From Chitinophaga pinensis (GTDB lineage: Bacteria; Bacteroidota; Bacteroidia; Chitinophagales; Chitinophagaceae): a DNA stretch of 64,000 nt. A model generated the notes under the pieces. It was not told where the DNA came from. It did no database searches and saw nothing but the letters and a program-made list of their open reading frames with translations. Made by a program: the position numbers and the translations under genes. The DNA is taken from the NCBI GenBank assembly GCA_902167325.1, contig LR632930.1, forward strand, positions 3,906,001 to 3,970,000. Direction: 5' to 3'. Below are positions 8,725 through 35,176 of this stretch, piece after piece (position 1 is the first letter of the stretch; every line of letters starts with the position of its first letter).

Positions 8725-8867
8725 CCGGGGTAATGCCACGTTTACTGCCACGTAACCCCGGTGTTACTGTACCTTAACCTCACCTTTGCGCCGCAGATAC
8801 TTCACGTTTACTCCACGGTTACAGTACTGATAGTGTACAGGTAATGTACCTTTTCCACGTTTGTAAG
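8725..8867 (+). repeat. Degenerate 11-bp tandem array, tract 1
   Basis: From 8736 the sequence divides without gaps into twelve 11-base units, for example CCACGTTTACT (8736), TCACGTTTACT (8802), CCACGGTTACA (8813), GTACAGGTAAT (8835). Column 9 is A in 10 of 12 units and column 8 is T in 10 of 12. A possible extra unit precedes at 8725. Eleven is not a multiple of three, so this is not a coding repeat. It lies in the 640-base gap between two plus-strand genes. Confidence 0.7.
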
Positions 8868-9043: not shown

Positions 9044-9175
9044 TGCCTTACCGCGGATGTAACCTTAGCTTACTGTATGCTTAATGGATACTTAATGGGT
9101 ACTTACCCTATATAAAACCCGTGGAAACCGCTCCTGTATTGGGGTAAGTACCAGTACATATACATAAAAGTACCC
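9044..9175 (+). repeat. Degenerate 11-bp tandem array, tract 1b
   Basis: Twelve consecutive 11-base units, for example TAGCTTACTGT (9066), ATGCTTAATGG (9077), ATACTTAATGG (9088), GTACTTACCCT (9099). Columns 6-7 read TA in 8 of 12 units. Weaker than tract 1 and about 180 bases from it. The stretch between them (8868-9043) shows only hints of the same period, such as repeated CCGG words 11 apart. Confidence 0.5.
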
Positions 9176-32135: not shown

Positions 32136-32660
32136 ATGTTTAAAACAATTCTGATGATGCTGACCCTTTGGGTTGGTAAGCCCCATGATGGGCAGCCAGG
32201 CAGTGGTCCCACCACGGTCATTTTCGTGAACTGCGCCGAGGAGCAGAACGGGCAGTTAACCTCTGTTGGCCGCGATCAGGCCGCATCGCTGATCCGGTTC
32301 CTTGAAAACGAATCCGTTAATGCAGTGTATTCCCCCTACAAACCCTGCCTTATGCAAACGGTTGAACCGCTGGCAAAGTCGCGCGGACAGCAGGTTACGT
32401 ACTTCCGGGATGCCTGTTTTGATGATGAGGAGGTGATGGACCATATCCTGTGGGTGATGGTTGAGAAAAATCAAGGCAAAACGATAGTGGTATGCGCAGG
32501 TCCGGGTAGTATCGAAAAAATGTCAAAGATGCTCGGAATACGGAAAAAATCGCTGAAACCCAATACAGGCGTGTTTGGGGAGGTGTTGATCGTCAACATT
32601 TTATATAAAGGGGAAGCGGTAGCACAAAAGTTGAATATGAATTTTCAAAAAAAAGTGTAA
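32136..32660 (+). CDS. Histidine-phosphatase-like protein without catalytic residues
   Basis: 174 residues with a short hydrophobic N-terminus. The fold markers of the histidine phosphatase (phosphoglycerate mutase) superfamily are there: TTVIFVNCAEE where active enzymes read VRHAE; LTSVGRDQAASLIRFLENESVNAVYSPYKPCLMQTVEPLAKSRG for the LTxxGxxQA...VYSSxxxRxxQTAEPLA region; and GKTIVVCAGPGSIEKM where active enzymes have a His (GHSNTI). So the R-H pair is N-C, the second arginine is missing, and the second histidine is Ala. It is probably a pseudoenzyme, perhaps a binding protein. It is isolated upstream of the gene desert. Confidence 0.75.
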   Translation: MFKTILMMLTLWVGKPHDGQPGSGPTTVIFVNCAEEQNGQLTSVGRDQAASLIRFLENESVNAVYSPYKPCLMQTVEPLAKSRGQQVTYFRDACFDDEEVMDHILWVMVEKNQGKTIVVCAGPGSIEKMSKMLGIRKKSLKPNTGVFGEVLIVNILYKGEAVAQKLNMNFQKKV

Positions 32661-32731
32661 TATTTGGCTCAGAGAGTGTGAAATCTGCATCTCTGCAGTT
32701 CACGCTTTCTCATAAGCATGGTTTCCGTTTA

Positions 32732-32760
32732 ACGAAAAAGCGGGGTTCTCCAACCCCGCT
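32732..32760 (-). terminator. Intrinsic terminator reading on the minus strand
   Basis: AGCGGGGTT, loop of four, AACCCCGCT. On the minus strand it is followed by TTTTTCG. No minus-strand gene lies directly upstream; the nearest (ALDH, stop 33650) has its own terminator. Confidence 0.6.
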
Positions 32761-32930
32761 ACTTCACTTAGCCTGTCACACTTTTCTTTCCGTGTTTCCC
32801 GCACACCTTTTTCAGAACAACTGTCACATTTTCACCTGATTTTCAAGCTAAAGGGCATTTTGTGCCATTAACTGTAAGGTTTTATCTGCCTGGCTGATGC
32901 TGTCTTCTATGCTGTTTTTAAGACGGCTAA

Positions 32931-33035
32931 AGGGAGTGTAAGGCAGTGTAGAGGCAGTGTAGACGTAGTGTACACCGGGTCTAAAGGTAGTCCAAAGGCA
33001 GTCCGGAGGTAGTAACGAGGGCTTGTAAAGGGAGG
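32931..33035 (+). repeat. Degenerate 11-bp tandem array, tract 2
   Basis: After a 10-base first unit (32931), eight gapless 11-base units run from 32941 to 33028, for example AGGCAGTGTAG twice in a row (32941, 32952), AGGTAGTCCAA (32985), AGGCAGTCCGG (32996), AGGTAGTAACG (33007), then AGGGAGG. All ten begin with A and eight with AGG. It lies in the gene desert between the pseudo-phosphatase and ALDH genes. Confidence 0.75.
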
Positions 33036-33222
33036 AATCTGCCCCACCGGAGCCTGCGGATCTTATCAGGCAGCAGGATGCCGGCGATAAGCAGCCGGTT
33101 GGCAAGAGGGGGTAATTGGGACAAGTCCCCACTGAAAACCGGGATCCGTACGAATGCTGAACCCTGTAAACTTGAATCAGTGTTTCCTCAGAGCAGGTAT
33201 AAATTTATTGCAGGAAAAGAAC
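33036..33222. other. Spacer within the gene desert
   Basis: The rest of the 32661-33649 gap outside the two arrays and the hairpins holds no supported gene. Short open frames on either strand are low-complexity readings of the arrays. At 33378-33388 and onward ACTAAG recurs 11 bases apart, a possible trailing edge of tract 3. Confidence 0.4.
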
Positions 33223-33365
33223 TGATACGGCTACAGTATGTCTGGCGTACAGGTAGCGTACGGTTACAGTATATCTAGCGTATAGCTAGCGTACGGCTAC
33301 AGCGCGATTAGAACGCTATTACAGCGCGATTAGAACGCAATTACAGTGCGATTAGCGTACGATTA
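33223..33365 (+). repeat. Degenerate 11-bp tandem array, tract 3
   Basis: Thirteen gapless 11-base units, for example GCGTACAGGTA (33245), GCGTACGGTTA (33256), GCGTATAGCTA (33278), CAGCGCGATTA (33300 and 33322), GAACGCAATTA (33333), GCGTACGATTA (33355). Column 10 is T in all 13 and column 11 is A in 12. Units alternate in places, giving a 22-base higher-order repeat. The most regular of the arrays. Confidence 0.85.
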
Positions 33366-33594
33366 GAGGAAGGAAAAGTGGTGAACTAAGGCGCACTAAG
33401 AAATCTGAAATCCTTTAGGGTATTTAGTTTTGGTTTTTGTCGATTTATTGAGGTTTCCGGGGCTTAAATTTGGCCTTTGGGTATCGTGCGCTCGTAGGGA
33501 GGGGAGGTGGCGGAAAGGCTGAAAATAAGGCTAAAAATGACCATAAATGGGTATTGAGGTGCGGATGGCCGGGAAACAGGTCTCTGACCGTATT

Positions 33595-33630
33595 TAAAAA
33601 AAGCCCTCCGGAAGTTATTTCCGGAGGGCT
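33595..33630 (-). terminator. Terminator of the ALDH gene
   Basis: AGCCCTCCGGAA paired with TTCCGGAGGGCT, loop GTTAT, followed on the minus strand by seven T. Twenty bases past the stop. Confidence 0.85.
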
Positions 33631-33649
33631 GGTAATATGACAATTGCCC

Positions 33650-35176
33650 TTACAGGTCGAATTTAATCCCCTGTGCCAAAGGCAGCTTTGTACTGTAATT
33701 GATCGTGTTGGTCTGCCGGCGCATATAAGCTTTCCAGGCATCGGACCCGCTTTCGCGACCGCCGCCCGTTTCTTTTTCACCGCCAAATGCCCCGCCGATC
33801 TCCGCACCGCTGGTACCAATGTTTACATTAGCAATCCCACAGTCGGAGCCGGCCTGAGACAGGAACAGTTCTGCCTCCCGGAGGTTCAGCGTCATGATGG
33901 CAGACGAAAGGCCCTGCGGCACGCCGTTCTGCAATGCAATGGCTTCATCCAGTTCGTTGTAACGGATCAGGTAGAGGATAGGCGCAAAGGTTTCGTGCTG
34001 CACGATCTTGTAGTGGTTCTTCACTTCCGCAATGGCCGGCTTCACATAGCAGCCGGATTCATAGCCCGCACCTTCCAGCACGCCGCCTTCCACCACAAAG
34101 GTGCCACCTTCCGCCTTACAGGCTTCGATGGATTGCAGGTAGGCATGCACCGCGTCTTTATCGATCAGGGGACCTACATGGTTGTTCTCATCCAGCGGAT
34201 CGCCGATGCGCAGCTGCTGATAAGCCTTCACCAGTTTGGCTTTGAAGGCATCATACACACTGTCGTGAATAATCAGCCTGCGGGTACTGGTGCAACGCTG
34301 GCCTGCAGTACCCACGGCGCCAAACACGCAGCCGATGAGCGACATATCGAGGTCCGCATCTTTCGAGATAATGATGGCATTATTACCACCCAGCTCCAGC
34401 AATGCCTTGCCTAAACGGGCGCCTACCATGGCACTCACGGCCTTGCCCATACGGGTGCTGCCGGTAGCGGAAACAAGCGGCACATTTACGTCGGAAGACA
34501 TCCATTCGCCCACTTCACGATCGCCCGAAACGAGGCAGGAAACCCCTTCGGGTACCCCGTTAGCCGCAAATACTTCCGCCGCTATCTTCTGACACGCGAT
34601 GGCGGTAAGGGGCGTTTTCTCGGAGGGCTTCCAGATACATACGTCGCCGCACACCCATGCCAGCATGGAGTTCCAGCTCCATACCGCAACCGGGAAGTTG
34701 AAGGCGGAAATGATACCTACAATACCCAGCGGGTGCCATTGCTCATACATCCGGTGGCCGGGGCGCTCGGAGTGCATGGTAAGGCCGTGCAGCTGGCGGC
34801 TGAGTCCTACCGCGAAATCGCAGATATCGATCATTTCCTGTACTTCACCATAACCTTCCTGCAGGCTTTTACCCATTTCATACGAAACAAGGCGGCCGAG
34901 GGCTTCCTTGTTGGCGCGGAGGGCGTCGCCCACCTGGCGCACCACTTCACCCCGGCGGGGTGCCGGCCAGAGGCGCCAGGTCTCGTAAGCGGCCTTTGCT
35001 GTAGCCACCACCTCGTCGTAATTGCTGCGGGATGCGCAGGTTACGGCGGCAATCACCTTCCCGTCTACCGGGGAAACCGATACAATTTCAGCTCCGCCCG
35101 CCGCCAGCCATTTGCTGCCGGTGGAAACGCCGCTGTTAAGACCTTTAATGCTGAATTGTTGCAGAATCTGCTCCAT
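33650..35176 (-). CDS. ALDH7-type aldehyde dehydrogenase (2-aminoadipate semialdehyde dehydrogenase-like)
   Basis: 508 residues. NAD(P)-dependent aldehyde dehydrogenase with catalytic Cys in [13 protein letters not shown], the Glu in [11 protein letters not shown], and cofactor-site segments [20 protein letters not shown] and [12 protein letters not shown]. The [13 protein letters not shown] block and the ending [40 protein letters not shown] are typical of the ALDH7/antiquitin group, which oxidises 2-aminoadipate 6-semialdehyde in lysine breakdown. A DUF1338 (2-oxoadipate-type) gene lies 1 kb away, in line with that role. It is divergent from the YeeE pair. Confidence 0.9.

Follow-up and report, generated by a model that had tools for sequence, protein, structure and literature searches.

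Introduction

REP-targeting IS elements (IS1397, ISPsy8, ISPpu9/10 and others; Tobes and Pareja 2006, PMC1525189) are highly selective for dispersed intergenic repeats, as is the IS clade described here. Their target is a palindrome of defined sequence, whereas in the present case at least a dozen unrelated sequences are involved that have only an 11-bp spacing in common and, unlike in REP-targeting IS, the repeat array always lies on the orfB side of the element. The targets of IS231A and IS2 (IS3 family; predicted) have been linked to bent or curved DNA, and the authors of the IS2 work described a periodic predicted curvature around its targets (PMC3299598). Target choice in these two elements is likewise tied to DNA shape, and IS2 belongs to the same IS family as our clade, but long tandem arrays, a strict 11-bp spacing and an absolute polarity of one end are unreported for them (PMC3299598).

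REP/BIME and MITE-like elements are, like these arrays, short, non-coding, intergenic and multi-copy, and some period-11 arrays are also inverted (fold-back). REP/BIME elements have a short palindromic unit with a defined consensus, whereas the units of the array families named E and F below are non-palindromic and the array families have no consensus in common; E and F arrays further differ from REP/BIME and MITE-like elements in their fixed 11-bp internal spacing. Rho utilisation (rut) sites are defined by an excess of C over G in which a cytosine recurs every 11-13 nt across ~78 nt (PMC6407284). The arrays resemble them in length (~80 nt), in a spacing within 11-13 nt, in the freedom of their sequence and, for the F element, in lying behind genes, but C does not generally exceed G in their sense orientation, and they are also present in divergent regions. 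Finally, the genome-wide 10-11 bp A-tract periodicity of prokaryotes is likewise near the helical repeat, but it consists of a weak phasing of short A/T runs (PMC3940949, PMC4060949), whereas here whole units repeat and no A/T phasing rule was found.

Searches of the open-access full-text literature returned nothing relevant on tandem repeats of 11 bp in the intergenic DNA of bacteria or on Chitinophaga together with IS3. In the open literature searched, arrays with a strict period of 11 appear to be undescribed as a class, and so does their polar use by a clade of IS3 elements.

Results

An 11-bp tandem array between convergent genes

The window, a 64-kb stretch of DNA analysed as a whole, belongs to a Chitinophaga chromosome of 6.28 Mb (G000:C1:3906001-3970000; hereafter, the source genome). 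The first-pass annotation of this DNA had described one array, here named E. The following features were found around it and elsewhere in the window:

8786-8857, plus strand: period-11 array with units such as CACGGTTACAG
9048-9132, plus strand: period-11 array with units such as TACTTAATGGG
32136-32660, plus strand: histidine-phosphatase-like ORF, with a weak Pfam His_Phos_1 match below the cut-off
32865-32888, plus strand: possible second remnant of an IS 3′ end, ACTGTAAGGTTTTATCTG, weak
32917-33042, plus strand: array F, ~10 units with AGGCAGT cores, unit AGGCAGTGTAG, a 112-bp dispersed element ending in ...GGAATC
33131-33222, plus strand: decayed 3′ (orfB-side) end of the IS3 clade
33223-33365, plus strand: array E, 13 gapless 11-bp units with the consensus (C/G)(A/C)GYRCGNTTA
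33596-33633, minus strand: hairpin with the inverted repeat CCCTCCGGAAATAACTTCCGGAGGG, followed on that strand by TTTTTTT
33650-35176, minus strand: aldehyde dehydrogenase gene (Pfam Aldedh, E = 4e-132)

The division of array E into 13 units of 11 bp without any indel was borne out; T occupies unit position 10 in 13/13 units and is followed by A in 12/13, CAGTATGTCTG being the odd one out, and the reported alternation of CAGCGCGATTA and GAACGCNATTA among the units was present. The self-match at lag 11 peaked at 47/66. When the intergenic region 32661-33649 was subjected to 2000 exact dinucleotide shuffles, the check that the annotation had called for, none rose above 37 and none reached the 47 of array E. 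Across the window, at periods from 5 to 30, the only period other than 11 to exceed 36 was its double, 22. The annotation had also held that a lack of other period-11 arrays in the genome would speak against its reading; 27 non-coding ones were found in 864 kb. Array E is non-coding, and its period is real and widespread. That it is not a CRISPR array also held, since its units directly abut, with no unique spacers between them. The second array (F), the pair of arrays at 8786-8857 and 9048-9132 and the decayed IS 3′ end are additions to the earlier description. Family E has dispersed relatives at 16 other matches in the source genome.

Both neighbouring genes are convergent towards the arrays. 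Among the named genomes compared, the aldehyde dehydrogenase shows 85% identity with its C. chungangae counterpart. The hairpin at 33596-33633 is likely the intrinsic terminator of this gene, and the arrays lie beyond it. An Rfam search of 32600-33700 gave no match above the gathering score, and the reading of the array region as a non-coding RNA was dropped on this ground. The intergenic region 32661-33649 is array-free in G036 and filled with unrelated period-11 arrays in G058, a sister species; in this comparison, spacer turnover was nearly complete between species with 80-93% gene identity.

Period-11 arrays form a genome-wide class

Tandem self-similarity was scanned at every period across 864 kb, made up of the window and forty 20-kb stretches distributed over the chromosome, with array-calling thresholds set by eye and gene calls that are longest-ORF approximations. 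Non-coding arrays were found at period 11 (27), 22 (17), 33 (6) and 44 (4), and none at periods 4-10 or 12-19 at an equal threshold in the same 864 kb. Nearly all coding arrays had a period that was a multiple of three. At a looser cut, 34 period-11 arrays were counted, while first-order Markov-resampled (approximate dinucleotide) shuffles gave 1.8. The arrays fell into at least 24 sequence-unrelated unit families, and the 24 representatives kept had few 7-mers in common. These data show that the intergenic arrays form a class in which the exact 11-bp spacing of the repeats, and not their sequence, is conserved. Scaled up from the sample, the genome would hold ~200 of them.

Array density was 34.7 per Mb in the source genome, 10.0 in eight other Chitinophaga and 18.8 in G144, which belongs to another genus. 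No period-11 array was present in 400 kb from ten other Chitinophagaceae genera, and other Bacteroidota had 2.5 per Mb (798 kb), with period 7 being commoner there. Of the array-bearing regions, 11/24 lay between convergent genes, compared with 17% of intergenic regions. Several arrays were inverted (fold-back), e.g. AGCCGCCNNTA...TATA...TANNGGCGGCT. A near-identical dispersed element that combines an inverted repeat with a period-11 array (GTCTTACCCCTTTATTAGGGTAAGACATGGGTAG...) occurred at L016:1106-1203, L046:16029-16125 and L047:8356-8522 and is a probable non-autonomous mobile element.

The annotation had proposed that one TpA step is presented per helical turn. This holds in the family of array E but is not general for the class: TA was mildly enriched inside arrays (observed/expected 1.24 vs 0.89 elsewhere) and was locked in at least 50% of the units in only half of the 24 unit families, so that the TA lock was dropped as a class rule and kept as a trait of the array E family. 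Phasing of A/T against G/C inside the units gave no significant first harmonic among the 24 families (Fisher p = 0.09). Provision of stop codons in every frame was rejected as the purpose of the 11-bp period, as a reading of the units revealed several families without them.

One end of an IS3-family clade abuts the arrays

Over the source window, the DNA of G058 is ~92% identical, and synteny is lost within array F, where an IS terminates the contigs of G058. The OrfB of the associated IS scored 226.6 bits with NCBIfam transpos_IS3 (cut-off 160) and matched Pfam rve/rve_3, corresponding to a DDE integrase core; by profile, the element is a member of the IS3 family. In one copy (L260), OrfA (1462-1896) overlaps OrfB (1893-2792). 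For a helix-turn-helix in OrfA, the G012 protein gave weak matches below the cut-off and that of L260 gave none. The ends of the G058 element, TGTCTTAC/TGTCTTAT, are terminal inverted repeats beginning with TG, as is characteristic of IS3, and target duplications of 3 bp (e.g. GAC, CAT, AAC and CTG) were seen at several copies in G144. The IS 3′ end carries three TGTAA sites. A spacing of 33 bp (3 x 11) between these transposase sites was considered and rejected; the measured value is 32 bp, and it thus adds nothing to the 11-bp argument. The clade ranges over Chitinophaga and the three other genera that hold the nearest OrfB relatives.

Among the G058 contig ends read, all those with the orfB-side IS terminus (TGTCTTACACTG, read inward) abutted a period-11 array, and these arrays belonged to three families. 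Single IS copies or remnants in G012, G031, G015, G033 and the source genome likewise had their orfB-side end at a period-11 array. For the nearest OrfB relatives in the three other genera, lag 11 was the strongest or near-strongest lag in the IS 3′ flanks. Among more distant IS3 relatives (OrfB below ~51% identity), 26/27 loci lacked the lag-11 association.

As a test set, chosen after the rule had been seen, we used the complete genome G144 from another genus, in which eight near-full IS copies lie on one contig. Lag 11 was the best lag at 8/8 of its IS 3′ flanks, one of them weak and located in the last codons of a gene, and some of the insertions lay within an array or in the middle of an inverted array. 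Five of the G144 copies (L320, L322, L325, L326 and L327) sit in members of one composite repeat at slightly different points and with different 3-bp duplications; this repeat also carries a TTTTTTGTAAAAAATCGACG hairpin 5′ of the IS insertion.

When the IS 3′ flanks were pooled, lag 11 was the best lag in 25/25 (with one tie), each with at least 20/33 matches, whereas the background was 2.9% of random non-coding segments in the relatives and 9.3% in the array-rich source genome. At the opposite end, 4/17 IS 5′ flanks reached at least 19/33 at lag 11. The 25 flanks are partly homologous (8 are F copies and 5 come from G144 copies) and represent ~14 independent array families. The signal began within ~11 bp of the IS junction and faded beyond ~80 bp. 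The A/T phase relative to the junction was marginal (p ~0.03 before correction for seven classes). Altogether, these results provide solid evidence for a polar, orfB-side association of this IS clade with period-11 DNA. Because the same IS end always faces arrays that are unrelated in sequence, the IS seems to read the spacing of the DNA rather than its sequence.

The arrays pre-date the IS insertions

In the window, the decayed IS end runs up to the hexamer AAGAAC, the equivalent of AAGACA, which ends at 33222, and array E begins at the next base. A profile built from nine IS 3′ ends matched 33131-33220 without gaps over 90 columns with 15.5 bits, while the best of 2000 shuffles reached 6.4. 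The possible second remnant is separated from the start of array F by 28 bp and scored 7.6 bits, with E = 0.0037 for a 1.1-kb search space. In the sampled part of the source genome, 3/3 clear remnants of IS ends had an array on their outer side. Conversely, a recognisable IS end adjoined only 3-5 of 79 arrays, which argues that the IS uses the arrays but does not explain their existence. Searches with the IS ends and with OrfA detected no intact IS of this clade in the source genome. For at least seven IS sites of G058, the ortholog in the source genome is an array without an IS and, by parsimony, this places the arrays before the IS insertions at those sites.

Unit turnover in family E and conservation in family F

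Orthologous E arrays in the sister species (L007/L218; G058) differed in unit number and consensus; at one locus, the units were CAGCGCGATTA in one species and CAGGCCGATTA in the other. Family E thus undergoes minisatellite-like gain, loss and homogenisation of units while the spacing is kept. Family F behaves otherwise: it is a fixed, dispersed 112-bp element of ten ordered, distinct units, with 18 copies in the source genome, and it is conserved above its flanks. Its G058 orthologs were 92.4% identical with 99.5% of positions aligned (almost gapless), against 85.9% for adjacent non-coding DNA, in a comparison whose alignment method favours the flanks. Since orthologs (92%) were closer to each other than paralogs (72-86%), this conservation does not stem from gene conversion. 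In the F copy of L203 (G058:C21 start), GGGCAGACGAA was locally expanded to four units, which is direct evidence for a recent gain of 11-bp units.

Two further observations concern F. A repeated motif, GGCCAAAACGG / TTTTGGCCG, adjoins the conserved GGAATC end of many F copies and is also present at several IS 5′ flanks (L273, L276, L281, L283, L286 and L288, next to the F element, and L248 and L255 of G058); possibly, it is another dispersed element with its own spacing. A replichore polarity of F was perfect by coordinate, but was rejected because it fell to ~13/18 with a GC-skew origin and terminus at ~0.9 and 3.95 Mb. On this chromosome (G000:C1), the GC-skew minimum lies at ~0.9 Mb and the maximum at ~3.95 Mb, near the window, and dnaA is located at 1.69 Mb.

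The turnover in family E and the four-unit expansion in L203 are what a neutral minisatellite would produce, in which slippage or unequal exchange builds the arrays, chance or mobile DNA spreads them, the period of 11 is inherited from one or a few ancestors, the units drift and the IS merely prefers intergenic repeats. We consider this history unlikely as a full account. Although the sequence drifts fully, arrays at period 10 or 12 are absent from the 864 kb, and the exact 11 bp common to unrelated units goes unexplained. Nor does neutrality explain an F element that is almost gapless and more conserved than its flanks, or an IS that always has the same end against the array. The alternatives offered in the first-pass annotation, a phased protein-binding or bent-DNA element or a decayed minisatellite, are supported in part: unit turnover does take place in family E, but a purely neutral minisatellite is insufficient.

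The orientation of F and the position of the arrays bear on the main rival for the host function, a Rho-utilisation array. According to this explanation, the arrays would specify C-rich, G-poor RNA on one strand with pyrimidine-C pairs every 11 nt and would act as Rho-dependent terminators, or as backups behind intrinsic ones, while the IS would land at termination sites. A rule of spacing with free sequence is natural for an RNA-binding hexamer, and a spacing of 11-13 nt with free sequence matches the published definition of rut (PMC6407284). The gene on the 3′ side of F points into F in 15/18 copies, so that the C-rich strand of F is the sense strand behind that gene in 15/18; moreover, the C-rich arm came first in the inverted arrays inspected, and the arrays are disproportionately found between convergent genes. 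Nevertheless, the sense strand of arrays in co-directional regions was C-rich about as often as that of regions without arrays (12/17 vs 64%), and C>G in sense was rejected as a general array rule, being no better than background. Several arrays lie between divergent genes, array E has about equal C and G, and the arrays often come after an intrinsic terminator. Taken together, a Rho-utilisation role appears quite improbable.

A further reading, which we regard as very unlikely, is that the IS itself makes the arrays: at its 3′ end, events that are imprecise or involve one end only would create or amplify 11-bp repeats, and IS-free arrays would be their scars. In favour of this reading, the association is absolutely one-sided, arrays are dense in genomes that hold IS copies or remnants and absent in 400 kb of ten other Chitinophagaceae genera, and array E begins exactly at an IS end. 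Against it, the insertion point varies among many of the G058 copies within members of a single old, dispersed F family, IS-free F orthologs exist in the source genome, where no intact copy was found, any IS end is present at only 3-5/79 arrays, and no IS3 step is known that gives 11-bp repeats.

Discussion

The explanation that we favour, and regard as fairly probable, is that intergenic arrays whose units turn over fast while their spacing is conserved act as polar landing pads for an IS3 clade, array E being one such site. Going further, we tentatively suggest that this transposon clade picks its target by spacing (one unit per 11-bp turn over ~8 turns), independently of sequence and with a fixed polarity, and that its hosts maintain a whole class of intergenic elements in which the spacing, and not the sequence, is conserved. 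Targeting of intergenic repeats is already known for other IS elements; the sensing of spacing would be the new part.

Mechanistically, the OrfA/OrfB elements of this clade would take ~80 bp of period-11 DNA as their target, with the orfB-side end against the array, and at target capture would sense a helix-phased structure with one repeat per turn in negatively supercoiled DNA. Recognition of one motif by a protein cannot account for the dozen unrelated units at the IS sites, whereas a once-per-turn structure can: it would fit any unit, as small bends would accumulate with a common orientation or a wrapping protein would find an identical face at every turn, and any unit sequence at one repeat per turn might therefore sum to a coherent curve or to a regularly wrapped nucleoprotein. 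Helix-phased DNA, curved or wrapped, is thus probably the physical basis. The asymmetry of target capture may stem from the IS 3′ end with its three TGTAA sites. For the IS, intergenic arrays would offer a safe, non-disruptive landing place.

If the target is the spacing alone, the transposase would capture either the shape of the DNA or a nucleoprotein in which it is wrapped, and the dozens of unit sequences in natural arrays would form a ready-made test set. In practical terms, the arrays tend to mark assembly breaks, as contigs end at IS copies. The persistence of the 11-bp spacing while the unit sequence drifts past recognition between families poses a clean evolutionary question. If this spacing mirrors the helical repeat in vivo, the latter would be recorded directly in these genomes.
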